Positions 5,330 through 57,836 of a DNA stretch of 64,000 bases are shown here, piece by piece. A program made the position numbers and the translations under genes. Numbering within the stretch: the first letter of the stretch is position 1; each line of letters begins with the position of its first letter. The DNA is from Spirochaetaceae bacterium (GTDB taxonomy: Bacteria > Spirochaetota > Spirochaetia > DSM-27196 > PWMO01): contig RECP01000056.1 of assembly GCA_007693945.1 (NCBI GenBank), positions 1 through 64,000 of the forward strand, given 5' to 3'. The notes under the pieces were generated by a model that was given only the letters and a program-made list of their open reading frames with translations, was not told the DNA's origin and did no database searches.

Positions 5330-6095
5330 GCCCATCACGCATGGGGATGGTCTGCGTAGCCGGAAATCGAAACCACCTTCGGAAAAACGCGCGTATTGCA
5401 GAAGATGCGAAACAGCTTCAGTCCGCCGCTCGTGGGCATCCTCGAGTCCGAAATCACGCCGTCGGGTCGGCCGATCACATACCAGTTCAACATCCTCATC
5501 TGCTTCCGATGCGGTGTCTACCACCGTGTTGCCACGGATACCCCCGATCAAGCTTTCGATAGCGAGTCCACAGTCGTCGCCGTATCGCATCGTCGCCGCA
5601 CGATGAGCGAATACGCGGGAGGTATTCGGGAGCGATCCGCTTACCGTCGTCCGACAGCGCAACCAGCATCGCGCCTGCCTTATCCTGGTTTTCGTTCAGG
5701 ACGTTCCAGTTGGCCATGTCCAGCGTGTTGAATCAGGAAGTGGCTCTTAGCCTGGGTTTAAACGTGCATCATGGTCGCCGACTTCTGCTCGATCTTTCTC
5801 TCGTAGTTTTCCTCCTCCAGGGTTTTCACGCTGGACGTCATCACTTTGAACTGCATGAAGATGTAGCCGAACTCATCATTGCGATCGGTCAGGGAGTCGG
5901 ATATCGGAAATGATGCCTGGATAGGCTCAAGTCGCCCGTATCACGTAGAAGTGCGGCGAGGCTGTGCTCGCGCTCGACCCATGATGCGTCCATAAGGAAG
6001 CCCACGACGGTGAACGAATAAAGACTACGACCAGTTGCGCCAGGGTGACACAAAAGATGAGTGGCGAAGTGAAGAGTCATAGTTGCTTCATTCAA
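5330..6095 (-). pseudogene. Decayed YesM-type sensor kinase fused by deletion to a YesN-type response regulator remnant
   Basis: Minus-strand frames joined across stops read as a histidine kinase of the YesM/LytS type: a HAMP-end and linker DEFGYIFMQFKVM followed by TLEEENYERKIEQKSAT, then HFLI with a shifted TLDMANWNVLNENQ (family: HFLYNTLDMINW). Further left, another frame reads PDGVISDSRMPTSGGLKLF and KVVSISGYAD, the phospho-acceptor and conserved Ser regions of a receiver domain. The kinase ATPase domain and the regulator's AraC output domain are missing. Such pairs normally control sugar ABC transporters, which fits the permease remnant at 2300-2591. Multiple frameshifts and stops make function very unlikely. 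Confidence 0.6.
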
Positions 6096-6396
6096 CTTCC
6101 TGCCTGCTACTAGCGACTCGAGTCCCTTACTCTGAGAGCCTGTCTTTTGATAGCTGCCGTTTCACTCGTCACCTGGCACGGTTCGATTATAGCAGTCTCC
6201 CGTGCAGTCCACGTCTGCACAAACACCGCTTCTGCTTAACTCCTCCGCACCCGACAGGGTGAGTTCGATCACCTCCGCCACCGCATATGAGCCGTTGCTG
6301 CGTTACGCCCGATGCGGCGTTGCCGTGAAACCGAGCAGGCACGGCCGATTCCACGAAGGATCCCGGTGATCAAAGCCCTCCCCCTGCATAGGCTGC
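6096..6396. other. Non-coding stretch between pseudogene and isomerase gene
   Basis: About 300 bases with no convincing gene. One minus-strand frame gives a short run AVAEVIELTLSGAEELS that looks protein-like, so it may be another fragment of decayed coding sequence, but I cannot assign a family. Confidence 0.4.
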
Positions 6397-7221
6397 TCAT
6401 TCGAGCGCGCTCCGGGACAGAGCGTCTCGCAGAACTGTCAGTCCTTCCTCAGCCTCAGCCTCGGCATCGGAATCAACTAGCGCCTCGATTGAGACGGCCG
6501 AAGTGTATCTGGCGCGGCGCAGGCAGCGGAAAACGCCGGCAAAATCGATGTGGCCTCGTCCGGGAACTCTCCGGTTTGAATCGGCGGCGTGAACATGGCC
6601 GATCCGTCCGGTGGCCTGTTTCAGTGCCTGCGGGATGGACGGATCCTCGATATTCATGTGGAACAGGTCTACAAGCACCGAGACGTGGTCCAGATCAAAC
6701 TCGCGCAGAAAGGAGAGCGTAGAAACCACCGTGGGAAAGCTGTCAATTTCGTAGCGATTGATGGGCTCCAGGTAGAATGGCGTGCTCGAAGCGCAGCAGT
6801 GCGTCATGAGTACGCGAACGCTCTCGGCGAGGGTTGCTTCGTATTGAGGTACGGAGCGGTCGCCTCTGCGGCCGCGAATGAACCCGATCGGAGCGCCGCC
6901 GCCGAGCAGCGCTACCGTATCAAGGTGTGCTCGTACGGCATCAATTGAATCGCGGCGGCGGCGTTCGACACTCTGAGCGAGATCAACTCCGGAGGCACCC
7001 ATCCAGATTCCGGCGACCATGCCGGACACTAAGCCTTCTCCGTCGAGCATACGCCGCAGTTCGCGCACCTGAGCTGCCGAGAGCTGCTCGTGTATGAAAA
7101 GATCGGTTCCGTCAAAGCCGATTCGCGCTGCCGCACTCAGAGCGTTCTTGAGGTTTCCTTCACGAAACAGTATCGGGCCAAACGCAACTGGACCCGTCGA
7201 TACCGTACAACAGAGTTTCAT
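6397..7221 (-). CDS. Sugar phosphate isomerase/epimerase (TIM barrel)
   Basis: 274-residue xylose-isomerase-like TIM-barrel protein. Visible elements: an N-terminal strand MKLCCTVSTGPVAF, the metal-site regions PFYLEPINRYE (Glu), SVLVDLFHMNIED (Asp and His), GHVHAADSN (His) and PGRGHIDF. I chose the ATG at 7221 because it gives a normal family N-terminus; the open frame continues about 180 codons upstream through sequence that belongs to the divergent aldolase gene. It shares a 160-base divergent control region with that aldolase. Its role is probably ketose epimerisation or isomerisation in the same catabolic route. Substrate unknown. Confidence 0.85.
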   Translation of the reverse strand: MKLCCTVSTGPVAFGPILFREGNLKNALSAAARIGFDGTDLFIHEQLSAAQVRELRRMLDGEGLVSGMVAGIWMGASGVDLAQSVERRRRDSIDAVRAHLDTVALLGGGAPIGFIRGRRGDRSVPQYEATLAESVRVLMTHCCASSTPFYLEPINRYEIDSFPTVVSTLSFLREFDLDHVSVLVDLFHMNIEDPSIPQALKQATGRIGHVHAADSNRRVPGRGHIDFAGVFRCLRRARYTSAVSIEALVDSDAEAEAEEGLTVLRDALSRSALE

Positions 7222-9077: not shown

Positions 9078-9600
9078 CTACGCTTTAAAGGCTGTTTCGC
9101 TCGGATAGTTCACTGCGTCGGCGAACCTGAGGCTGATCGAGTTTGCTTTCACTGGCCAGGCAAGGACACCGGACTCAACCAGGTGGTCGAAGAACCAGCA
9201 TCGCCGGCCGTCAGCTCTCGCGGTGATGCCGCCGCTTGCAAAGGTCGGACCGCGCACGCTGTCGGGTTGCACTGATGCAACCGTGATCCCTGAGGTGTTG
9301 ACGTGCTTCATGTACTCCTTCAGACGGTCGGTACCCGTGGAGAAGACCGGAAAAGCGTTTTCGGTCACGCCGCCCACCATCCCGCAGAGGCTACTGACCA
9401 ATGCCATATCTTCCACTCGGTCGGACACCGGACGAACACCGCCAGGTTACGGCTCCATGAGTACCGGTTGACCGCGCCAAACGGTACACCAGTTTCCGAT
9501 ACCGATCTTGAGCACTGAAGGCGCCTTCCTGATACCGCCGTACGAGGCTCCCACGGAGTCGAGCCGCTCGCGCAGGCATTCAGTATTCAAACGCCATTGT
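9078..9600 (-). pseudogene. Broken ORF of unknown family
   Basis: The minus strand contains a 116-codon frame ending at 9078 whose text looks like real protein (FSTGTDRLKEYMKHVNTSG, WFFDHLVESGVLAWPVKAN). Immediately upstream a different frame also looks real (LKIGIGNWCTVWRGQPVLME) and stops near 9456. A frameshift between the two would join them into one chain of about 165 residues with no clear start. I do not recognise the family. It ends 12 bases upstream of the deoR start, so it may once have been an enzyme of the sugar cluster. Alternatively the downstream frame is a short intact gene starting at 9428. Confidence 0.4.
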
Positions 9601-9758
9601 ACACCGCAAACGAATGAAAGAAAAGCAGATTTGGCGTTCTTATGGTGGAAAATGGTGAAATAGGGATGAATTTGGTTGTTTTTCTTGACGTGAGCCATCT
9701 ATACCGCGTACACTGCTGAAGTCCCTGACTGCGGGTAGAATCAACAGGAGCCGAGAAC

Positions 9759-11195
9759 ATGCTGAATGTGAGTATCGAATATGGCGAAGGGATGATGGAC
9801 ATATCGCTGCCCGATTCCGCTGACATCTTTGTTCCTGGTGAGACTATTCCCGACCCTCCCGCTATCCCCGCGACTGCGATCATTGCGCGCACGCGAGAGT
9901 CACTAGACAACCCGCTGAACATGAAGCCTATCCAGCAACTGGTGAGCTCGGAGTCTCAGGTTGTCATTGTGTTCCCCGACAAGGTGAAGGGGGGCTTCCA
10001 GGACAACTCACATCGCAAAACCACTATTCCATTGATTCTGGAACAGTTAAGCGCGGTGGGGATCCCCGATGCAAATATCCTGCTGATCTGTTCGAACGGT
10101 CTGCACCGCAAAAACACCCGGGAGGAGATACGCTCGATCATCGGCGAAGAGGTTTTCGGGCGCTTCTGGCATTGCGGGCGCATCGTCAATCACGATTCGG
10201 AGGATTGGGACAACCTCGTCGATCTTGGTTCAGACGAGAACGGCAGCAGGGTCATTATGAATCGCAAGGTCTATGAGGCCGATCTCGCGATTCTGATTGG
10301 GCACACTTTGGGCAATCCCTACGGCGGCTACTCCGGCGGGTACAAACACAGCGCCACCGGCATTACGCACTGGCGCAGCATCGCCGAGCATCATGTTCCC
10401 GATGTTATGCATCGCGAAGACTTCATTCCGGTCAGCCACACCAGTCTAATGCGTCGGAAGTTCGATAGTATCAGTCAGCACATGGAGAGCAACATGAAGC
10501 GCCCGTTCTTCATCTGCGATGCAGTGTTAGATAGCAGGGCCCGGCAGATCGCCGTGTTCTCCGGATACGGCGTCGACGTGCAGCGCGAGTCGTTCACAGT
10601 AGCCAATAAACGTACCTACGTCCCTTGGGCCACAAAGAAGTTCAATGTGATGATCTTCGGCATGCCCAAGGCGTTTCACTACGGCAACGGCCACGGAACC
10701 AATCCGATTCTGATGCTACAGGCGATCAGCGCCAACGTCGTTCGCCATCGTCGTATCCTGGCGGACAACTGCGTGGTAATCTGTGCCTCGATCTGCAACG
10801 GCTACTTCCACGACGAGGAGTTTCCGTCCTATCGCGCCCTCTATGAGCTATTCCAGACAGACTATCACCAGACCCTGCCCGATCTTGCTCGATTCGGCGA
10901 ACAGTTCTCGCTTCGGCAGGAATGGATTGACGCCTACCGCTACGGCTACGGCTATCATCCCTTTCACGCCTTCTCCATGATTTCCTGTGGACATATCGCC
11001 GAAACCCACTGCGCCGCGATCTACATCGTAGGAGCACAGGAACCGGGGTACGCTCGCGGAATGGGCATGAAAACGCGGGCCACCGTAGATGAGGCGCTAA
11101 CCGATGCTGCGAAGATCGTCGGGCCGGACCCGAACATCCTGGTATTGCCGAAGACCTTCAAAGTCGCCGGCGTGCACCTGATGATGAAAGAGTAA
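9759..11195 (+). CDS. LarA-type nickel-dependent racemase/epimerase homologue (DUF2088)
   Basis: 478 residues, related to lactate racemase LarA, which uses the nickel-pincer nucleotide cofactor to invert 2-hydroxyacids. The start at 9759 follows AGGAG. The LarA His108 region is ICSNGLHRKNT, the cofactor-linking Lys184 region is YGGYSGGYKH, and the His200 region is SIAEHH. The position matching His174 (10 residues before the lysine) is Asn (GNPYGGYSGG), so the substrate may differ from lactate; sugar acids are plausible given the neighbours. No larB, larC or larE is present in the window, so the cofactor must come from elsewhere. The VOC gene starts 15 bases downstream, forming an operon. Confidence 0.78.
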   Translation: MLNVSIEYGEGMMDISLPDSADIFVPGETIPDPPAIPATAIIARTRESLDNPLNMKPIQQLVSSESQVVIVFPDKVKGGFQDNSHRKTTIPLILEQLSAVGIPDANILLICSNGLHRKNTREEIRSIIGEEVFGRFWHCGRIVNHDSEDWDNLVDLGSDENGSRVIMNRKVYEADLAILIGHTLGNPYGGYSGGYKHSATGITHWRSIAEHHVPDVMHREDFIPVSHTSLMRRKFDSISQHMESNMKRPFFICDAVLDSRARQIAVFSGYGVDVQRESFTVANKRTYVPWATKKFNVMIFGMPKAFHYGNGHGTNPILMLQAISANVVRHRRILADNCVVICASICNGYFHDEEFPSYRALYELFQTDYHQTLPDLARFGEQFSLRQEWIDAYRYGYGYHPFHAFSMISCGHIAETHCAAIYIVGAQEPGYARGMGMKTRATVDEALTDAAKIVGPDPNILVLPKTFKVAGVHLMMKE

Positions 11196-36259: not shown

Positions 36260-37540
36260 ATGCTCGATCCAAAATTCATCCGCGATAACGCTGAGGCCGT
36301 TCAGCTCAATATCCAACAGCGAAACATGCAAGCCGACGTCCAGACCTTCGTCAAGCTCTACGACCGGCGCAGCGGTGCGATCCGGGAACTTGAGAACCTG
36401 CGTGCACAACGCAACGAGAACGCCAACAAGATGAAGGGCGGACCGCCGCCGGCAGAGCGTGAACGGCTGATCCGGGAAGGCAAGCAACTCAAGGCGCGGA
36501 TTCCGGAACTGGAACAGCGACTGAAGCAGATCGAGGAAGACTTGACGCGCGAGGCAGAGCGCATTCCCAACATGATGCATCCCGAGGCACCTATCGGCGT
36601 CGGTGACCAGGCTAACCGCGAGATCAAGCGCATCGGGGAGGTTCCGCAGTTCGATTTCGCCGTCAGAGACCACGTTGAGATCGGTGAGACCCTCGACCTT
36701 CTTGACTTTGAAACCGCTACGCGGGTATCGGGAACCAAGTTCTACTATCTCAAGAATGAGGCCGTGATTCTCGAGTTGGCGTTGTGCCGCTTCGCACTTG
36801 ACGTGCTGCAGAAACGCGGCTTCGTACCGATGATGACGCCCGACATTGCCCGCGAAGAGGTAGTGGCCGGCATCGGCTACAATCCTCGCGGCCCCGAGAC
36901 CAATATCTACTCGCTGCAGGACGATGACGGCTGTCTGGTAGGTACCGCCGAGATCACCCTGGGCGGCTATTACGCCGGCAGGATTCTGGAGGCCGAAGAA
37001 CTTCCCATCAGGCTGGCAGGAATCTCGCACTGTTTCCGCCGCGAAGCCGGCGCCGCCGGACAGTTCTCGAAAGGGCTCTACCGGGTACACCAGTTCACCA
37101 AGGTCGAGATGTTTGTCTACTGCCGGCCAGATCAGTCTGATGACGTACTCGAGGAGCTGCGCGAGATTGAGGAGCAGATATTTACTACACTCGAGGTTCC
37201 GTATCGCGTGGTCGATACCTGCAGCGGCGATCTTGGCGCCCCGGCGTACCGCAAATACGACCTGGAAGCGTGGATGCCCGGTCGCGGCGAGTCGGGGGAC
37301 TGGGGAGAGATCACCAGCACCTCCAACTGCACCGACTATCAGGCACGCCGGCTGGGCGCCCGCTACCGCGATGGAACCAGCCGCCGGTTTGTCCACATGC
37401 TCAACGGAACCGCAATCGCTGTCTCGCGGACCCTGATCGCGCTGTTGGAGAACTTTCAGCAGGCCGACGGATCGGTGCGTATTCCGGCGGCGCTGGCGGC
37501 CTACACCGGCTTTGACCGCATTGCACCCCGCAAGCCCTGA
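36260..37540 (+). CDS. serS: Seryl-tRNA synthetase
   Basis: 426-residue class II synthetase charging tRNA-Ser. It begins with the typical MLDPKFIRDN, followed by the long N-terminal coiled-coil arm (residues about 25-100) and the class II core. Motif 2 is around HCFRREAGAAGQFSKGLYRVHQF and motif 3 around NGTAIAVSRTLIALLEN. The start at 36260 is chosen by family similarity and by the promoter spacing; a TTG at 36251 would add three residues but lies inside the -10 box. The next gene overlaps its 3' end or starts 4 bases later. Confidence 0.95.
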   Translation: MLDPKFIRDNAEAVQLNIQQRNMQADVQTFVKLYDRRSGAIRELENLRAQRNENANKMKGGPPPAERERLIREGKQLKARIPELEQRLKQIEEDLTREAERIPNMMHPEAPIGVGDQANREIKRIGEVPQFDFAVRDHVEIGETLDLLDFETATRVSGTKFYYLKNEAVILELALCRFALDVLQKRGFVPMMTPDIAREEVVAGIGYNPRGPETNIYSLQDDDGCLVGTAEITLGGYYAGRILEAEELPIRLAGISHCFRREAGAAGQFSKGLYRVHQFTKVEMFVYCRPDQSDDVLEELREIEEQIFTTLEVPYRVVDTCSGDLGAPAYRKYDLEAWMPGRGESGDWGEITSTSNCTDYQARRLGARYRDGTSRRFVHMLNGTAIAVSRTLIALLENFQQADGSVRIPAALAAYTGFDRIAPRKP

Positions 37541-38648
37541 CCGCGTGCTGATCATTGCGGAGATCGGTACTTCCCACGGCGGGGATCTGCTGCGCGCGCG
37601 CGAACTGATCGCCGCGGCCGCCGAAGCCGGTGCCGACTGCGCCAAGTTCCAGTACGTAATCGCCGCCGAGATCCTGCACCCCGCTACCGGCCTGGTCGAG
37701 CTTCCCGGCGGCGCGGTTGATCTCTATCGGCGCTTTGAAACGCTGCAGCAACCGCAGGCATTCTACCGACAGCTTATCGATGCGTGCCGCGCAGCCGGCA
37801 TCGAGTTTCTGTGCACGCCCTTCGGTGCCGAAAGCGCCCGGCGGTTGCAGCAGCTCGGCGTGACCAGGTTCAAGGTTGCCTCCCCCGAGCTCAACCACGC
37901 GCCGCTGCTGCGTCAGCTGGCGGGCTACGGCAAGCCGCTGATTCTCTCTACCGGTGTGTCACTGCTCGGTGACATTGAGCGCGCGCTCGGGCAACTGCGC
38001 GGCGTGGCAGTCACTCTGCTGCACTGCGTGACTGCCTATCCCGCTCCCGAACAGCAGTACAACCTGCGGCTGTTGCCGCTGTTGCAGCGCCTGTTCGGCG
38101 TGCCGTGCGGCGTCTCCGATCATTCCGCCGACCCGCTGCTCGTGCCGACGGTGGCCGCGGCGCTCGGCGCGGCGGTAATCGAGAAGCACATTACGTTGAC
38201 GCACGACGGTGACGGTCTGGATGACCCGATAGCGGTCACGCCGGTCGATTTCGCACGCATGGTGCGCATGGCGCGCGCAGCGGCCGAGGCGCGGCCGCCG
38301 GCGGCAGTATCGGACCTCACGCCCGAGCGGCTCACTGAACTCCAGCGCGAGTTCGGCCGCCGGCGCGTCGAAGCGGTTCTCGGTGACGGGCGTAAGGGCC
38401 TGGCGGCGGCCGAACTGGCAAACTACGGTCGCAGCAATCGCTCGCTGCACGCGCTGCGCGACATCCCGGCCGGTGCCACCGTGGCTTCCGATGCGGTGGC
38501 GGTGCTGCGCAGCGAGCACAACCTCAGCCCCGGGCTCTCGCCGTGGCTGCTCGATGCGGTGATCGGAGCGGTCGCCGCCCGCGACATCGCGGACGGCGCC
38601 GGCATCGTGTGGGAAGATCTTATCAGGCGCCGCGGGCACGATGAGTGA
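37512..38648 (+). CDS. N-acetylneuraminate synthase (NeuB) family protein with SAF domain
   Basis: 378 residues, NeuB/PseI family: condenses phosphoenolpyruvate with an N-acetyl hexosamine sugar to a nonulosonic acid for surface glycans or flagellin glycosylation. TIM barrel (about 10-280): IIAEIGTSHGGDLLRA, GADCAKFQY, KVASPELNH, ILSTGVSLLG, LLHCVTAYP, GVSDHSADP and IEKHITLTHDGDG. A C-terminal SAF/antifreeze-like domain (about 305-370) has LHALRDIPAGATV. The start is TTG at 37512 within serS, or GTG at 37545. No partner sugar-processing genes are seen nearby, so the exact sugar is open. Confidence 0.87.
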   Translation: MTALHPASPDRVLIIAEIGTSHGGDLLRARELIAAAAEAGADCAKFQYVIAAEILHPATGLVELPGGAVDLYRRFETLQQPQAFYRQLIDACRAAGIEFLCTPFGAESARRLQQLGVTRFKVASPELNHAPLLRQLAGYGKPLILSTGVSLLGDIERALGQLRGVAVTLLHCVTAYPAPEQQYNLRLLPLLQRLFGVPCGVSDHSADPLLVPTVAAALGAAVIEKHITLTHDGDGLDDPIAVTPVDFARMVRMARAAAEARPPAAVSDLTPERLTELQREFGRRRVEAVLGDGRKGLAAAELANYGRSNRSLHALRDIPAGATVASDAVAVLRSEHNLSPGLSPWLLDAVIGAVAARDIADGAGIVWEDLIRRRGHDE

Positions 38649-38669: not shown

Positions 38670-41393
38670 TCAGCTGCGGCTCTCCTGCAGGAACTTGCGC
38701 AAGACGGTCTGCAGAATCCCGCCGTTGCGGTAGTATTCGACCTCCACCGGGCTGTCAATGCGGCAGCGGGTAGTGAACGCGACACTGGTTCCGTCCTCGC
38801 GGGCAGCCGTAACCACCACGTCCTGAGCCGGTTTGAGATCATCGTCGATCGCAAACGCGTACTGCTCGCCGCCGTCAAGTCCGATGCTCCGGTAGCTCTC
38901 GCCCTCGGCGAACTGCAACGGCAACACTCCCATACCTACCAGATTACTGCGATGGATACGCTCAAACGACTCGGCGATCACAACCCGAATCCCAAGCAGG
39001 AAAGAGCCTTTGGCGGCCCAGTCGCGGCTCGAGCCCATACCGTAGTCCTTGCCGGCCAGCACGATCGACGGCGTACCCTCTTTGCGGTAGCGCTCGGCAG
39101 CCTCGAAAATGCTGACCCGTTCACCGGTCGGGTGATGCACCGTCCAGCTGCCCTCGGTTCCGGGCGCCAGAAGGTTGCGGAACCGTATGTTGGCAAAGGT
39201 GCCGCGGGTCATGACGCGATCGTTACCGCGGCGACTGCCGTAGGAGTTGAAGTCGCGCACCTCAACCCCCATCGATAGCAGATAGCGTCCGGCCGGGCTG
39301 TCGGGATCGATGGCTCCTGCGGGACTGATGTGATCGGTGGTGATGCTGTCACCGGCCATCACGAGGCAGCGGGCCGCGCTGATCGGCGCAATCGGCCTCG
39401 CATCAGGCGTCATCTGGTCGAAGAAACTCGGTTCCTGAATATAGGTGCTGCTATCGTCCCACTGGTAGAGATCAGAGCCGGCGAGCTCGATACTGTTCCA
39501 CTGCGGATTCGAGGTCTCGAGACCGCGGTAACTCTCGATGAATGCATCACGGTCAAGCGCCTTCTGCACGTACTCGGCCAGCTCCTCATCGCTGGGCCAG
39601 ATGTCTCTCATGAAAACCGGAGCGCCGGATGAGTCGCACCCGAGCGGCTCAGTCTCGAGATCGATGTCCATGTTGCCGGCCAGCGCGTACGCCACCACCA
39701 GCGGAGGTGATGCCAGAAAATTGGCTCTGGTATGCGGGTTGATGCGGCCTTCAAAGTTCCGGTTGCCGGAGAGAACCCCGGCCACAACCAGCCCGGCCTC
39801 CTCGACCGCTTGCCGGACAGGTTCGGGCAGCGGTCCGGAGTTCCCGATGCAGGTGGTGCAACCGTAGCCAACCAGGTAGAAGCCCAGCTGCTCCAGGTAG
39901 GGCATCAACCCCGCTCGTTGCAGGTACTCGGTGACCACCATCGAACCCGGCGCAAAGCTGGTTTTGATAAACGGCCTGGTGGATAGCCCCTTCTCAACCG
40001 CCTTCTTGGCCAGCAGCCCGGCTGCCAGCAATACCGACGGATTGCTGGTGTTGGTGCAACTGGTAATCGCGGCAATCACGACATCACCGTGGGTCAACTC
40101 GCCCGAATGGCCGTTGATCCTGACCGGCGCTTTGGCGTTCAGCTGCGCGGCGTCGAGCTGAAAACCGCGCTCGTCGTAGGAGGCGGTAAGGCTTGTGCGC
40201 CAGCTGCTCTTGACCTGACCGAGCGCGATACGATCCTGCGGCCGCTTGGGTCCGGCCACGCTGGCCTCGACGCTGTCCAGATCGAGCTCGAGAACCGTCT
40301 CGAAATCGGGATCGGGAGTATCGTCAGTGCGGAATACCCCCTGCTCCACGGCGTAGAGTTCAGCCAGGTCTATGACCTCCTGCGGACGTCCGGTGGCGTA
40401 CATGTAGTCGAGGCACTGCTGATCAATCGGGAAGTACCCGATAGTGGCGCCGTATTCGGGTGCCATATTGGATATGGTGGCACGGTCGGGAACGGTCATG
40501 GCCGACAGTCCGCGGCCGAAGAATTCCACGAATTTGCCGACCACGCCGTGCCGGCGCAGCATCTCGGTGATTGTCAGTACCAGATCGGTTGCAGTGATGC
40601 CGCTGCGCAGCCGTCCGGTCAGCCTCACACCGACTACGCGCGGCGCCAGCATGAATAGCGGCTGTCCGAGCATCGCCGCTTCAGCCTCAATACCGCCCAC
40701 ACCCCAGCCTACGATGCCCAGACCGTTGATCATCGGCGTGTGCGAATCGGTACCGACCAGTGAATCAAAGAAGGCCAGCGTCCGCCCGCCAACCTCGCTG
40801 GTCTGAACGATCTTGCCCAGGTACTCGAGGTTGACCTGGTGGCAGATTCCGCTGGCCGGCGGCACCACGTGAAAGTTCCGCAGCGCAGCCTGTCCCCAAC
40901 GCAGGAACTCGTACCGCTCGCGGTTGCGCTGAAACTCCAGCTGTGCGTTCTGGCGCAGGGCATCGGAGCTGTTGAAATAGTCGACCTGGACGGAGTGATC
41001 GATCACCAGATTAACCATCAGTTCAGGGTTGATCCGTTTCGGGTCGCCCCCGAGCCGGGCCATTGCGCTGCGCATCGCTGCAAGGTCCACAACGCAGGGG
41101 ACACCGGTGAAATCCTGCAGCAGGACGCGTGCCGGTTTGAAGGGCACCTCGATCGAATCCGGCCTGTGCGGGTCGTACGTCAGGAGACTGTCGACGTGTT
41201 CGCGAGTCACTTCGCGCCCGTTCTCGCTGCGCAGAACCGATTCCAGCAGTACCTTGATCGAAACCGGGTACCGATCGACGTGGGGATAACCGTTCTGCGC
41301 CAATCTGCGCAGACTGACGTAATCAAACTTGCCAAAGGGCGTCGTGAGCGTCGAAAGTAGTCCCAGTGAATCGTTGATTCTCTCAGTAGTCAT
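38670..41393 (-). CDS. acnA: Aconitate hydratase
   Basis: 907 residues, AcnA/IRP type; converts citrate to isocitrate using a [4Fe-4S] cluster. Cluster cysteines are in [15 protein letters not shown] and [18 protein letters not shown] (residues about 440-510). [16 protein letters not shown] marks the substrate region and the C-terminal swivel domain has [11 protein letters not shown] and [24 protein letters not shown] precedes the ATG. It is divergent from the E1-lipoyl-KASIII fusion gene with a 128-base shared control region. The stop comes 21 bases from the convergent neuB-like gene. Confidence 0.96.
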
Positions 41394-41521
41394 GCAACTC
41401 TCCTTGTCCTGCTGTCGTCATAATAGTGGTATATGAGTGTCGACTTCAACATACCCGCGTGGTATAGTTCTGGTCGACAAAACAAAACCTTAGTATAACT
41501 ATAACCTATGGAGGATCCGCA
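41394..41521. promoter_or_regulatory. Divergent control region between acnA and the E1-lipoyl-KASIII fusion
   Basis: AT-rich for this genome. Plus-strand candidates include TTCTGG-17-TAGTAT and the nearby TATAAC pair (around 41493-41507) before GGAGG and the GTG at 41522. Minus-strand TATA-like boxes also occur. I cannot assign the exact promoters. A shared region allows coordinated control of the TCA enzyme and the fusion protein. Confidence 0.4.
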
Positions 41522-44500
41522 GTGAGCGGCAATCAAAATCATAGCGAAACAGTACGGAAGCTCCTTAGCAGTTACCGGCATATGGTCACTTCGCGCGAAA
41601 TCGACCTCCTCGAACAGGATTTCACCGGGCGCGGCGAGGCGTTCTTTCACGTCTCGGGGGCTGGACACGAGGCAACCGCCGTACTCAATCATCACCTTAT
41701 TTCGGACGACTGGCTGCATGTCCACTACCGCGACAAGGCACTGATGCTGGCACGTGGTATTTCGATCGAGATGTTCTTTCTCGCAACCTTCAGCAAGGAT
41801 GCCTCGCACTCGCGCGGCAGGCAGATGAATGCCCACATGAGCGCCCCGGAACTCAACGTACTGAGCCTGGTCGGACCGGTCGGCAACAGCGCGCTGCAGG
41901 CCGCCGGCGTGGCTCAGGTGGTAAAGCCCCGGCCCGCCAACCCGATTGTACTGTGCGCGCTGGGAGACGGCATGACGCAGCAGGGCGAGGTACTCGAGGG
42001 TATCGCGCACGCGGTGCGCGACCAGCTTCCGGTGCTCTTTGTGATTCAGGACAACAGCTTTGCGATATCAACGACAACCGGCGGCAGAACCTTCTACAGC
42101 ACGCCCCACGGCGACGCCCAAAGCTTCTACGATGTGCCGATTACGCGCATCGACGGACGTGATGCGCCGCGAAGCCTGCAGGTATTCGGAGAGCTCGTGT
42201 CGGGGATGCGGCGCGACCGGCGGCCGCAGATCGCGGTTTTCCAGGTGGACCGTCTTTCCAACCACACCAACGCCGATGACCAGCGTATGTACCGCAGCGC
42301 TGAGGAGATCGCGGCGGTACAGGCGTCCGGTGATCCGATCATCCGTCTGCAACACTACCTGAACGACGAGGGCGTGCCGCGCTCCGAGCTGGATGCAATT
42401 GCCGCTGACGTACGCGAACAGGTCAGAAACGCTGCGTATCGTGCGCAGCGTAGCGCAGAGCCTGTCGCGGCGTTCGGTGCGTCCAGGCCGCTGCCGGTGC
42501 CGCTGGGCGACCGCAACGCCGAATACCGTGGCGATCCGTCCGCGGCACCGCAACAGAAGCCGCTGACCATGCTCGAGTCGATCCGGGAAGTGCTGCGGCT
42601 GCAGATGGAGAAAAACCCGGACGTGGTGCTGTTCGGCGAAGACATCGAGGATCCCAAGGGCGACGTTTTTGGCGTGACACGCGGACTGACCACCGCCTAC
42701 GGTGACCGTGTCCGCAACTCACCGCTGGCCGAGGCGTCGATTGTCGGCATCACAATCGGGCAGGCGCTGGCGGGCAAGCGGCCGGTTGCGTTTCTGCAGT
42801 TCGCGGACTTCCTGCCGATCGCCTACAATCAGATCTTCGCCGAGCTCGGCAGCATGTACTGGCGCACCGACGGTGGCTGGCAGGCGCCGGTCATTGTTAT
42901 GGTCACCTGCGGCGGCTACAAACCGGGCCTCGGCCCGTTCCATGCCTCGAGCCTGGAAGCACTGGCCGCCCACACGCCCGGTGTCGACGTATTCATGCCG
43001 TCAACCGCCGGCGATGCGGCCGGGCTGCTCAACGCGGCGTTCCAGTCCGGGCGGCCTACCCTGTTCTTCTACCCCAAGAGTTGCCTCAACGATCGTGACA
43101 GCGCGACCAGCGGCGACATCCAACGCCACCTGGTGCCTATCGGCACCGCGCGGTTTGTACGCCGCGGCAGCGACATCACTCTGGTCGGCTGGGGCAATAC
43201 CGTTCCGCTGTGCAGCAAGACCGGCGACGCGCTGGCCGAGATCGGCGTACAGGCCGACGTCATTGACCTGCGCTCCATAGTTCCCTGGGATGCCGAGACC
43301 GTCCTGGCGTCCGCCGAACGCAGCGGCCGACTGGTAGTAGTGCACGAAGACAACCACACTGCCGGTTTTGGCGCCGAGGTGGTAGCCACCGTCAACGAAC
43401 GCGCTTCACGCAGGATCGAGTGTCGTCGCGTCACGCGGCCGGACACCTACGTACCGTTCAATTTCGCCAATCAGCTCGAAGTGCTGCCGACGTACAAGCG
43501 AACCCTGGAGACTGCGGTGGCGCTGCTCGGCGGGCAGCTACGCTGGAAGCTACCGCAGGCGGCACTCAAGAACACCTACATGGTCGAGGCAATCGGTTCG
43601 AGCCCGTCGGATGAATCGATCACGGTGGTCGAGTGGAAGATCAAGCCGGGAGAAACAATCGAGTCCGGAACCCTGCTGGCTGAACTCGAGGCCGACAAGG
43701 CCGCCGTCGAGTTGCGCTCGCCGGTCTCGGGAGAAGTCAGCGCGTTGCTGGTCGAAGAGGGCCAGCTGGTAAAGGTCGGAACCCACATCGTGCAGGTGAC
43801 AACCGCAGATCAGGACGACAGCGAGTCGTTCAAGCAGGTAACGCGTGAGAATCCCGGCACACCGCTTATAAGCGAGATTGCAGCCAACGGAGACGGCGGC
43901 GGCGGGAACCGTGCCGTCAATGCGGCCGCGGCCGCCGTGGCCACGGCATCGCGCAACGGGCGCCGGACCGTGGAAGTCGCCATATTCGGAGTGTGCGGCG
44001 CAAAGGGATCGCGGATCGTATCCAACCGTGAGATCTCGCTGATGTGTCCGCAATGGGGCGCCGACGACATCCTCAAGCGTACCGGTATTGAATCGCGACC
44101 CTGGCTGGCCGAAGGCGAGTCGCCGATCGACCTGGCAACCGCTGCCACCCGTCGTCTGCTGGACGGATCGGGCGTCGACTTCGATCAGATCGGAACGATC
44201 ATCTGCGCTACCGAGACCCCGATCATGAACACCCCGGCCAGCGCGGCCCTGATTCAGGAGCGCATCAAGGGCACGCGCGAGGGATTCCTGTCGGCGGCGT
44301 ACGACGTCAACGCGGCCTGCTCCGGCTACGTCTACGCACTGCAGAACGCCTACGATATTCTGACCAACGAGCCCGACAAGCTTGTGCTTGTGGTCACTAC
44401 CGAAGCGCTCTCGCCGCGCACCAATACCGCCGACCCGCAGACTGCGCCGATCTTCGGTGACGCGGCAACCGCCACGCTGGTGGGAGTCACCGGCGCTGCC

Positions 44501-44941
44501 CACGGCGGCATGCCGATCAGAGCACGGCTCTACCGGCCGGTACTGGGAGCCAGCGGGGAAGACGGCAGCGTGCTGCGCGTGCCGGCCGACCCGGCTGACT
44601 CCATCTACATGGACGGGCCAAAGGTTTTCGTGGAGGCCGTACGCGGGATGATCGAGAGCCTCGAGCGTGCCTGTGCCGTGGCAGGCATCGGCGTCAAGGA
44701 TCTCGATCTGATTGTGCCTCACCAGGCAAACCAGCGTATCATCAACGCCGTACAGCAGCGCGCCAGGGTGCCGCGGCAGAAGGTGTTCAGCAATATACGC
44801 TATAACGGCAACACGTCGTCGAGCACCATTCCGCTCTGTCTCGAGACCATATTCAGTCAGCGCTACGATGGAGCCTACCTCGGCCTGTCGGCGTTTGGAG
44901 GGGGCTTTACCTTTGGCGGTGCCGTGCTGCGTGTGGTATAA
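41522..44941 (+). CDS. E1alpha-E1beta-lipoyl-KASIII fusion protein (2-oxoacid dehydrogenase joined to FabH-like synthase)
   Basis: One uninterrupted 1139-residue frame, GTG start behind GGAGG. Residues about 1-330: thiamine-diphosphate E1 alpha (GDGMTQQGE at 148, then DNSFAIS). About 343-675: E1 beta (LFGEDIEDPKGDVFGVTRGL, RVRNSPLAEASIVGITIGQA). About 684-762: lipoyl domain with the modified lysine in EADKAAV (Lys726). About 816-1139: FabH-like ketoacyl synthase III with Cys933 (NAACSGY), His1067 (VPHQAN) and Asn1097 (NGNTSSS), spaced as in FabH. No E2 acyltransferase (HxxxDG) or E3 is encoded. Inference: oxidative decarboxylation of a branched 2-oxoacid loads the lipoyl arm, which hands the acyl group to the synthase to start a fatty acid or related chain. 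Confidence 0.88.
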   Translation: MSGNQNHSETVRKLLSSYRHMVTSREIDLLEQDFTGRGEAFFHVSGAGHEATAVLNHHLISDDWLHVHYRDKALMLARGISIEMFFLATFSKDASHSRGRQMNAHMSAPELNVLSLVGPVGNSALQAAGVAQVVKPRPANPIVLCALGDGMTQQGEVLEGIAHAVRDQLPVLFVIQDNSFAISTTTGGRTFYSTPHGDAQSFYDVPITRIDGRDAPRSLQVFGELVSGMRRDRRPQIAVFQVDRLSNHTNADDQRMYRSAEEIAAVQASGDPIIRLQHYLNDEGVPRSELDAIAADVREQVRNAAYRAQRSAEPVAAFGASRPLPVPLGDRNAEYRGDPSAAPQQKPLTMLESIREVLRLQMEKNPDVVLFGEDIEDPKGDVFGVTRGLTTAYGDRVRNSPLAEASIVGITIGQALAGKRPVAFLQFADFLPIAYNQIFAELGSMYWRTDGGWQAPVIVMVTCGGYKPGLGPFHASSLEALAAHTPGVDVFMPSTAGDAAGLLNAAFQSGRPTLFFYPKSCLNDRDSATSGDIQRHLVPIGTARFVRRGSDITLVGWGNTVPLCSKTGDALAEIGVQADVIDLRSIVPWDAETVLASAERSGRLVVVHEDNHTAGFGAEVVATVNERASRRIECRRVTRPDTYVPFNFANQLEVLPTYKRTLETAVALLGGQLRWKLPQAALKNTYMVEAIGSSPSDESITVVEWKIKPGETIESGTLLAELEADKAAVELRSPVSGEVSALLVEEGQLVKVGTHIVQVTTADQDDSESFKQVTRENPGTPLISEIAANGDGGGGNRAVNAAAAAVATASRNGRRTVEVAIFGVCGAKGSRIVSNREISLMCPQWGADDILKRTGIESRPWLAEGESPIDLATAATRRLLDGSGVDFDQIGTIICATETPIMNTPASAALIQERIKGTREGFLSAAYDVNAACSGYVYALQNAYDILTNEPDKLVLVVTTEALSPRTNTADPQTAPIFGDAATATLVGVTGAAHGGMPIRARLYRPVLGASGEDGSVLRVPADPADSIYMDGPKVFVEAVRGMIESLERACAVAGIGVKDLDLIVPHQANQRIINAVQQRARVPRQKVFSNIRYNGNTSSSTIPLCLETIFSQRYDGAYLGLSAFGGGFTFGGAVLRVV

Positions 44942-49641: not shown

Positions 49642-51186
49642 TCAGCTGCGTTTTACTCGTTTACGTACGACGCGACTGCAGTTGTACCCGGCTGCGCCGA
49701 AGATCCCGCCGCCCGGATGCATGCCGGCGTTTGCCATGAACAGTCCCGGCAGCGGCGACTCGTATCCGGCCAGTTCCGGCAGCGGGCGAAACACAAACAT
49801 CTGGTCGGTTACCATCTCAACGTGCATCACATTGGCGTTGGGCATATTGTGTTTCTCGGATATCACCGCCGGTGTCTGTGCATAGATGTCGCGAACCGCG
49901 CCGCGGGTACCCGGTGCGTATCGCTCGACCACTCCCAGCAGTCGTTCGACTTCGCGCTTTTCAATCTCGGGCCACGAAAGCCCCTGCCGCAGCCGATACG
50001 GGTAATACTGGCCCCAGACGAACAGGGTGTGCTTGTCGGCAGGAGCCAGCGTAGGATCAACCGCGCTGAAGGTCATACCGATCGCCGCCGGGTTCTCGGA
50101 CGGCAGCCCCTTGAGGTAGTCCGCGTAGGCATCGTGAACGTACTGCACCGACGGGCAGAGCAACTGCAGACCGTTGTGAATGCGGTCCGCGGCAACCCGG
50201 TACTGCGGCAGGGCATCCATGGCGCAGCGCAACACCATACCGAAGCCGTTGCCGACCTGGACCTTTTCGACGCGTGAACGCAAGCTCGGTGGGGTCCAGT
50301 CCCGCAACAGCTGCAGGTAGGTCACCCACAGATGTGCGCTTGCCACCACCGCTCGACCGGTGATGGTGGTGCCATGCACGGTCTCGGCGCCACAGGCGCG
50401 GCCGTTTTCAACCAGGATACGCTTGACCTCCTGCCCGGGCAGTATCTGTCCGCCGTGAGCCTCTATGCAGCGCGCCAGAGCTTGAGTCAGCATACCCGAG
50501 CCACCCTTCGGCCGCGCCGGCCCGCGCTTGTGTATGATCGAGTGCCAGCCGACGAACTCTGCCGACATGGCATCAATTGGAGCAGGGCCGCTTTGCGCTC
50601 CCCACCATACCAGGGCTGAGCGCAGCTGTTCGCTCTCAAAACTGTCATTGACAAACCTGCCGTAGCTCTGAAACAGGGTGCGAATCAGATCGGTCCTCGG
50701 GAAGTCGCGGTCGTGGAACTTCTTCAGGAAAAGTGTGCGTCCGAGGTTGGCAGTAGTCGGCCTGTTGAGAAAGAAGTCAAACACCGCCTCGTTCAGCGGC
50801 TGCCAGCGGCGTACGAAGGTGCGGTATGCATCCGCGTCGTGCTCGCTGACCTGCGCGATGCTGCGGCACGTGCGATCAAGATCCTGGTAAAACTGGACAC
50901 AGCTACCGTCTTCAAACGGCGCCGACATGAACGGATCGAGCGGAATGTACTCCAGACCGTAGCGCTCCAGTTCCAGGTCAGCCACAATCGGCGTGTGGTG
51001 GATCATGAAGTGCAGCGAACCGCCGACATCCATCCGGAATCCGCCGAACATCTCCTCGGTGCACACCGCTCCACCAACCGTGTCGCGCCGCTCGAGCACC
51101 GTAACCCGGTAGCCCCAGCGCGCCAGATAGGCGGCACACACCAGGGCATTATGTCCGCTACCCACGACAACGATATCGGTATCCAT
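49642..51186 (-). CDS. FAD-dependent oxidoreductase, phytoene desaturase/PYROXD2-like
   Basis: 514 residues. The N-terminal dinucleotide-binding motif VVVGSGHNALVCAAYLARWGYRV (shortened) is followed by the family segment GGAVCTEEMFGGFRMDVGGS and, near the end, PGLFMANAGMHPGGGIFGAAG, as in CrtI-type desaturases and carotenoid isomerases. I start at 51186 because a TTGCAA-17-TATAAC promoter ends 6 bases upstream; the frame itself extends 9 codons further through that promoter. No carotenoid genes are near, so the substrate is open. Confidence 0.85.
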   Translation of the reverse strand: MDTDIVVVGSGHNALVCAAYLARWGYRVTVLERRDTVGGAVCTEEMFGGFRMDVGGSLHFMIHHTPIVADLELERYGLEYIPLDPFMSAPFEDGSCVQFYQDLDRTCRSIAQVSEHDADAYRTFVRRWQPLNEAVFDFFLNRPTTANLGRTLFLKKFHDRDFPRTDLIRTLFQSYGRFVNDSFESEQLRSALVWWGAQSGPAPIDAMSAEFVGWHSIIHKRGPARPKGGSGMLTQALARCIEAHGGQILPGQEVKRILVENGRACGAETVHGTTITGRAVVASAHLWVTYLQLLRDWTPPSLRSRVEKVQVGNGFGMVLRCAMDALPQYRVAADRIHNGLQLLCPSVQYVHDAYADYLKGLPSENPAAIGMTFSAVDPTLAPADKHTLFVWGQYYPYRLRQGLSWPEIEKREVERLLGVVERYAPGTRGAVRDIYAQTPAVISEKHNMPNANVMHVEMVTDQMFVFRPLPELAGYESPLPGLFMANAGMHPGGGIFGAAGYNCSRVVRKRVKRS

Positions 51187-51192
51187 TGCTCC

Positions 51193-51221
51193 GTTATACG
51201 GCATACGCGCCAAGTTTGCAA
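51193..51221 (-). promoter_or_regulatory. Sigma70-like promoter for a leaderless transcript (flavoprotein gene)
   Basis: On the minus strand TTGCAA (51221-51216), a 17-base spacer and TATAAC (51198-51193). The ATG at 51186 comes 6 bases after the -10 box. A GGAG lies only 2 bases before the ATG, too close for normal Shine-Dalgarno use. Confidence 0.6.
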
Positions 51222-56912: not shown

Positions 56913-57836
56913 CTACACGTCTTGCGCCGCGGCGCCGCGGTAGAGTGGATGCACCCGCCGGCGGTAACTCTCATACTGCTCGCCGGCGTGATAGGATGAG
57001 CGTACCAGCGGACCGGCCTCGCAGTGGTCAAATCCTTTCTCCAGCGCGCGCTGCTTGAGCTCGGCGAACTCGTCGGGCGTCCAGTACCGCCGCACCGGTA
57101 TGTGGGTCTTTGAGGGTTGCAGGTACTGTCCGAGGTTCATCACCGTAACCCCGTTTTCCAGCAGATCATCCATCGACTGCAGTACCTCTTCACGGGTCTC
57201 TCCCAGCCCGAGCATCATGCTCGATTTGACCACCGCCTCGGGGTCAAGTTGACCGGCGATACGCAGGAAGGCCAGGGAGCGATCGTAATCCGACCGTGAC
57301 CGTACAAGGCGGGTCAGCCGGCGGGTCGTCTCGATATTATGACTCATGATCTCGGGCCGGCTCCGGCTCACAATTTCGATACTGTGGCGATCGCCCATCA
57401 GGTCGGATGACAGCACCTCCACCGAGCAGTCCGGTGCCTGCCGGTGGATCTCGCGTACGGTGGCGGCCAGTACGGCTGCACCACCGTCATCGAGGTCGTC
57501 GCGGTTAACCATCGTGATTACGACGTGGCGCAGTTGCATATCGACAACTGATTCGGCCACACGCCCCGGTTCGCCCCAATCCACGGCGCCCGGAAGCCCG
57601 GTCTTGACGGCACAGAAACGGCAACGCCGGGTGCACGTATCACCGAGAATCATGAAGGTCGCGGTGCGATAATCTCCCCAGCATTCATGAATGTTGGGAC
57701 ACCGGGCCTCCTCACAGACCGTGTTGAGCTGTCTGGAACGCATCATGTGCTTCAGATGCCGATAACTCTCGGTTGTATTGAGATGGGTTCGCAGCCAGTG
57801 CGGCTTGCGTTGCGTCGGTCGGTCGGCAGTACTCAT
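56913..57836 (-). CDS. lipA: Lipoyl synthase
   Basis: 307-residue radical SAM enzyme inserting two sulfurs into octanoyl groups on lipoyl domains. The auxiliary cluster cysteines are [12 protein letters not shown] (about residue 38) and the radical SAM cluster CTRRCRFC (about 67). ELLSSDLMG and [13 protein letters not shown] follow, and the C-terminal RSSYHAGE with the conserved Ser-Ser is near residue 285. It likely matures the lipoyl domain of the fusion protein at 41522-44941 and other 2-oxoacid complexes. A leader of about 10 bases with AGGGA precedes the ATG. Confidence 0.94.

Follow-up and report, generated by a model that had tools for sequence, protein, structure and literature searches.

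We describe a gene in a 64,000-nucleotide stretch of DNA (the window; contig RECP01000056.1 of assembly GCA_007693945.1) from a Spirochaetaceae bacterium (genome G000; 3.73 Mb in 140 contigs), in which both halves of a thiamine diphosphate (ThDP)-dependent 2-oxoacid dehydrogenase E1, a lipoyl domain, and a ketoacyl-acyl carrier protein (ACP) synthase III (KASIII) domain are coded in one reading frame. In textbook bacterial fatty acid synthesis, the KASIII enzyme FabH takes acyl-coenzyme A (acyl-CoA), and a separate dehydrogenase complex makes the branched acyl-CoA primers. We propose that the fusion instead starts branched-chain fatty acids independently of CoA, by direct lipoyl-to-KASIII transfer, and we put the probability of this reading, which is drawn from sequence comparisons, at roughly 0.7. 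It also seems probable, if somewhat less so, that fatty acid synthesis in many free-living spirochaetes can start from a 2-oxoacid without acyl-CoA and that KASIII has replaced the E2 acyltransferase on two separate occasions.

In the mechanism that we envisage, the condensing enzyme would take over the E2 acyltransferase step of a 2-oxoacid dehydrogenase. The E1 halves would bind ThDP, decarboxylate a 2-oxoacid, most likely a branched one derived from valine, leucine, or isoleucine, and acylate the lipoyl group predicted on Lys726. Flexible linkers would allow the lipoyl arm to reach into the KASIII pocket and hand its acyl group to Cys933; condensation with malonyl-ACP, aided by His1067 and Asn1097, would then yield a branched 3-ketoacyl-ACP. 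The primer would need no CoA, and the dihydrolipoyl group would be reoxidized by a free lipoamide dehydrogenase (E3). Direct transfer to the synthase cysteine had been suggested in an initial annotation of the window and is well supported at the sequence level: the residues that bind the CoA adenine are lost from the KASIII domain, a two-gene version in other spirochaetes has KASIII at the place of the E2 acyltransferase, and the E1 keeps both histidines used in reductive acylation.

Architecture and distribution of the fusion

The gene and its parts, all on the + strand of the window, are as follows:

41510..41514, +: GGAGG, a Shine-Dalgarno-like motif 7 bases 5' of the GTG start, read directly
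41522..44941, +: whole gene of the E1alpha-E1beta-lipoyl-KASIII fusion, 1,139 amino acids, GTG start, open throughout
41576..42463, +: E1alpha domain (residues 19-314; PF00676), with conserved Arg70, Asn178, and His248
42563..43480, +: E1beta domain (residues 348-653; PF02779 and PF02780), with conserved Glu404 and His474
43589..43816, +: lipoyl domain (residues 690-765; PF00364), with the Lys726 codon at 43697-43699 within EADKA
43817..43966, +: linker (residues 766-815), predicted disordered and differing in length among orthologues
43967..44938, +: KASIII domain (residues 816-1139; PF08545 and PF08541)
44318-44320, 44720-44722, and 44810-44812, +: codons of the KASIII triad Cys933, His1067, and Asn1097

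Open reading frame analysis and Pfam searches confirm the uninterrupted frame with both E1 halves, the lipoyl domain, and the FabH-like synthase, and Lys726, Cys933, His1067, and Asn1097 sit at the positions named in the initial annotation. The near match to Escherichia coli FabH in the spacing of the triad was likewise borne out (134 and 30 residues, compared with 132 and 30 between FabH residues 112, 244, and 274). All six Pfam matches are far above the curated cut-offs: E1_dh (residues 19-314; 135 bits), Transket_pyr (348-522; 86.7 bits), and Transketolase_C (541-653; 102 bits) place the first part of the chain among E1 proteins, Biotin_lipoyl (699-758; PF00364, 56.8 bits) marks the lipoyl domain, and ACP_syn_III (927-992) and ACP_syn_III_C (1052-1137) mark the synthase. 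Pfam searches found no E2 acyltransferase domain (PF00198) in the protein and no E3-binding domain in its linker, and NCBIfam has no whole-protein model for the fusion. An AlphaFold2 model, used solely for domain borders and disorder, has a mean predicted local distance difference test score (pLDDT) of 83 and falls below 50 at residues 764-776 and 788-815, consistent with disordered linkers; its Foldseek matches are branched-chain and pyruvate E1beta structures and FabH structures.

An alignment of 28 full-length sequences (the window protein and 27 orthologues, 49-81% identity) shows that Lys726, the predicted lipoyl acceptor, and all three triad residues are invariant, as are five residues of the E1. 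Of these, Arg70, Asn178, and His248 correspond to Arg114, Asn222, and His291 of human branched-chain ketoacid dehydrogenase (BCKDH) alpha, and Glu404 and His474 to Glu76 and His146 of BCKDH beta; Asn178, His248, Glu404, and His474 are the residues of ThDP binding and reductive acylation. In comparisons with two congeners, the ratio of nonsynonymous to synonymous substitution rates (dN/dS) is 0.04-0.20 per domain, indicating purifying selection on every domain, and the lipoyl-KASIII linker has the highest ratio and is the fastest-evolving part. The protein resembles the branched-chain 2-oxoacid dehydrogenase complex in its ThDP-dependent E1 with two reductive-acylation histidines, its lipoyl arm, and its need for E3, but it has neither E2 acyltransferase nor E3-binding domain, and the predicted acceptor is the KASIII cysteine rather than CoA. 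It is best read as an E1 with a genuine lipoyl domain, neither a complete dehydrogenase complex, because it has no E2, nor a standard FabH, because both its CoA site and its score against the FabH model depart from that enzyme.

A database search for the four-domain architecture found it in 68 of the 297 Spirochaetia genomes sampled, some of them single-contig, and, rarely, in other lineages; it is present in most genomes of the Spirochaetales, the order in which its named relatives place the window organism. Non-spirochaete carriers from a scan of GTDB contigs are two Accumulibacter, a member of the Pirellulaceae, a beta-proteobacterium, Rheinheimera, a Baikal gamma-proteobacterium, and Marinobacter halodurans, with fusions at 47-58% identity. 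An assembly error joining two genes, the objection foreseen in the initial annotation, is excluded because the architecture recurs in these spirochaete genomes and in contigs of other lineages, dozens of independent assemblies in all. Wide presence in Pseudomonadota was rejected: only one of 299 sampled genomes carries the fusion, and it is the centre genome itself, so that scattered horizontal transfer is likely. PLSDB holds no plasmid-borne full-length copy, and a literature search with limited terms found no such fusion, which is weak evidence of absence. One further match, in G177, was set aside as a fused E1 of the ordinary kind, with a normal E2 after it. A public metagenome-assembled genome titled Borreliella garinii (L066) has a fusion at 55% identity on a 35-kb contig, and its name is almost certainly misassigned. 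At two loci (L055, 2138-3088, and G029:C2) the open frame reaches ~300-400 amino acids upstream of the fusion; in L055 this extension has no Pfam domain, and the true start is probably further in.

The KASIII CoA site and related E1-lipoyl systems

The KASIII domains of 38 fusions were aligned to E. coli FabH (sequence checked against PDB 1hn9) and to spirochaete FabHs. The CoA adenine in FabH is stacked between Trp32 and Arg151 (PMC4606726), and neither residue is present in any of the 38 fusions; the first position is occupied by Asp (27), Glu (6), Gly (4), or Ala (1), and the second is Pro in 27. Both residues are kept in all 22 spirochaete FabHs compared (16 of 16 in one set and six of six in another). 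All 38 fusions retain the residues equivalent to Cys112, His244, and Arg249, and 37 retain that of Asn274, with a gap in the remaining one; every fusion also has a basic residue (Lys or Arg) at position 257, which like Arg249 lies on the ACP/CoA face. The window protein retains the Cys-His-Asn triad as Cys933, His1067, and Asn1097, has Asp849 at the Trp32 position and Thr904 at that of Phe87, and has Arg151 replaced. Its KASIII domain thus shares with FabH the fold, the triad, and the basic residues 249 and 257, and differs in its adenine site, in Thr87, in its place behind a lipoyl arm, and in its score against the TIGR00747 fabH model (197.3 bits; cut-off, 292.1). Because Trp32 and Arg151 are lost while Arg249 and the basic residue 257 are retained, we infer that the pattern fits a primer arriving otherwise than as acyl-CoA, with malonyl-ACP still docking.

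Six other spirochaete genomes (G014, G055, G058, G060, G090, and G091) code for a lipoyl-KASIII protein. Five copies are complete at ~500 amino acids; that of G091 runs off a contig end and shows the KASIII end alone. In the five genomes with a complete copy (loci L105 in G060, L106 in G055, L132 in G058, L133 in G014, and L134 in G090), the gene directly 5' of it codes for a fused E1alpha-beta protein of about 656-697 amino acids. The linker contains an E3-binding domain (PF02817; cut-off, 23.7 bits) in L106 (36.4 bits) and L133 (31.1 bits), and comparable stretches in the remaining complete copies do not score against PF02817. The second protein has the layout of an E2 chain in which KASIII replaces the acyltransferase. 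Its CoA site is also altered, with Trp32 changed to Tyr and position 36 to Val in all six copies, and Arg151 is kept.

A single clade for the E1 domains of the fusion and of the two-gene version is rejected (approximately unbiased [AU] test, p=3e-5), and the two-gene E1 has a separate origin. The KASIII tree is compatible with a single clade of both versions (AU p=0.46); recruitment of KASIII on two occasions is unsupported when judged by that tree alone, and separate origins are seen in the E1 domains alone. Among the 297 genomes, 68 have the one-gene version, six the two-gene version, and none both (counts uncorrected for relatedness), and this mutual exclusion fits functional equivalence. 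The two versions are alike in combining E1alpha-beta with lipoyl-KASIII and in having an altered CoA site; the two-gene version is set apart by its E1 origin, its two chains, the E3-binding domain in two copies, and a KASIII nearer to FabH.

The closest E1alpha-beta proteins in PLSDB are from Streptomyces (38-41% identity); among the E1s sampled, they form the fully supported sister group of the fusion E1. They are coded by plasmid loci (L125-L127) that we take, from our own reading of gene content, to be streptogramin-type clusters. In L125 (13929-30214), as in L126 and L127, the E1alpha-beta gene is immediately 5' of a polyketide synthase/nonribosomal peptide synthetase (PKS/NRPS) that begins with lipoyl, E2 acyltransferase, ACP, and ketosynthase domains. 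The starter of virginiamycin M is an isobutyryl group derived from valine. A BCDH domain is drawn as the loading domain of the virginiamycin M PKS (PMC10006238), and this module resembles the fusion in its sister E1alpha-beta and in the passage of the lipoyl acyl group straight into an assembly line. It differs in that lipoyl-E2-ACP heads a PKS/NRPS encoded by an antibiotic cluster, whereas the fusion, in which a Pfam search found no ACP domain, has KASIII instead of E2 and ACP and is a stand-alone gene. Because the sister E1s adjoin such a start, lipoyl-arm delivery of an acyl group into an assembly line has a close precedent here, with E2 still present.

Substrate and competing explanations

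A branched 2-oxoacid is moderately supported as the substrate of the fusion. The E1alpha domain scores higher against the branched-chain E1s of Thermus (133 bits) and human (105 bits) than against pyruvate E1 (86 bits), and the E1beta motif QFADF is closer to QFADY of the Thermus and human branched-chain enzymes than to QFFGF of Geobacillus pyruvate dehydrogenase (PDH), although E1beta overall scores marginally best against the latter. Position 87 of KASIII is Thr in 34 of the 38 fusions; Phe87 favors acetyl-CoA, and Thr87 favors longer acyl substrates (PMC3734052). Two genomes that carry the fusion, G011 (a single contig of 3,285,855 bp) and G057 (99% complete), each code for one E2, in a complex with E1 subunits over the PDH cut-offs, and one long pyruvate:ferredoxin oxidoreductase (PFOR)-like protein over its cut-off, and no branched-chain dehydrogenase besides the fusion was recognized in either. 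The suggestion in the initial annotation that branched primers are a possible product thus gains moderate support from the E1alpha similarity, from Thr87, and from these two genomes.

G011 is probably, we believe, Spirochaeta africana. S. asiatica and S. dissipatitropha are distinguished by their lack of iso-C15:0 (PMC4511686), which implies that S. africana has this acid. The fusion would then, if G011 is this species, be the best candidate source of the S. africana branched primer. Elsewhere among spirochaetes, Salinispira pacifica has 11.7% iso-C15:0 (PMC4511686), and the major acids of Oceanispirochaeta include iso-C13:0 and iso-C15:0 (PMC11129491).

Direct transfer might also operate on an unbranched E1 substrate, such as pyruvate, 2-oxobutyrate, or a ketose phosphate, with straight-chain, odd-chain, or hydroxylated products, but we regard this as unlikely. 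The E1alpha pocket residues Gly118 and Val120 do not vary among the aligned fusions and appear PDH-like in comparison with the human enzymes, which leaves room for a small acyl group; the E1beta score against Geobacillus PDH points the same way, and NapB/QncN-type E1-lipoyl proteins use ketoses. However, the E1alpha scores and the QFADF motif both lie nearer the branched-chain enzymes, Thr at KASIII position 87 speaks against an acetyl preference (PMC3734052), and pyruvate is already handled by PDH and the PFOR-like protein in G011 and G057.

The remaining explanations assign KASIII another role. It occupies the exact place of the E2 acyltransferase, and KASIII-fold acyltransferases exist, and it could conceivably substitute for E2 by accepting the lipoyl-bound acyl group and delivering it to CoA, ACP, or some other acceptor; this is improbable, as His1067 and Asn1097, which are required for decarboxylative condensation, are invariant, and the loss of the adenine-site residues argues against CoA as the acceptor. 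It is very hard to credit that the fusion serves co-regulation only, with a free E2 passing the acyl group to CoA and KASIII acting as an ordinary acyl-CoA FabH. The window genome does have four free E2s, but the CoA-adenine residues are missing from all 38 fusions, the sole E2 of G011 and of G057 is of the pyruvate type, and the two-gene version keeps lipoyl and KASIII together on one chain, with E1 separate.

Several observations nevertheless weigh against a CoA-independent start of branched-chain fatty acids by the fusion. An acyl-ACP donor would also fit the adenine-site loss, and the CoA site may have eroded just once at the KASIII domain, since the KASIII tree does not reject a common origin. 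The apparently PDH-like pocket residues belong here too, as does a second fused E1alpha-beta in the window genome that has its own E2 and E3. No conserved operon partner of the fusion was found at the related loci compared. Lastly, in the complete genome G007, probably Salinispira pacifica, the better fusion copy (L110, 5823-9315) consists of three overlapping frames separated by two frameshifts, and the second (L112, 3755-5896) is fragmentary.

Genomic context and implications

Two genes near the fusion bear on its setting:

38670..41393, -: acnA (aconitase), transcribed divergently beside the fusion at 28 of 47 related loci; listed for context only
56913..57836, -: lipA (lipoyl synthase), ~12 kb away from the fusion gene on the window contig, predicted to make the Lys726 cofactor

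The fusion stands alone in most spirochaetes, divergent from acnA. Because its neighbors are unrelated (acnA, an M48 protease, SDR, GreA/GreB, flavodoxin, and others) and vary between clades, we regard it as a solo unit, and a biosynthetic cluster was rejected. In two spirochaetes (L040 and L066) a DUF6657 gene is 5' of the fusion and a flavodoxin-like gene is directly 3' (5893-6525 and 9267-9893, respectively). The window also codes for a CrtO/CrtI-like carotenoid oxidoreductase (49642-51213, -) that scores under the CrtO cut-off, and for a NeuB/PseI-like synthase (37512-38648, +) under both curated cut-offs, whose position adjoining serS and acnA is conserved in many relatives. lipA is at a similar distance from the fusion in G002, and homologues of lipoate ligase/octanoyltransferase are encoded elsewhere in G000.

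The absence of E2 and E3 stated in the initial annotation holds for the protein but not for the genome, which encodes four of each elsewhere together with two ordinary FabHs; the fusion is therefore read as an extra initiator served by E3 in trans. All four E3s are over the cut-off and none is at the fusion locus, in keeping with the earlier expectation that E3 must come from elsewhere.

If the proposal is true, membrane lipids would have a different start, independent of the CoA pool, with amino acid carbon committed directly. It raises the question of whether a lipoyl thioester can donate directly to a condensing enzyme, and the fusion may offer a compact part for branched-lipid engineering. 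It could also explain the iso fatty acids of spirochaetes that are without a CoA-forming branched-chain dehydrogenase.

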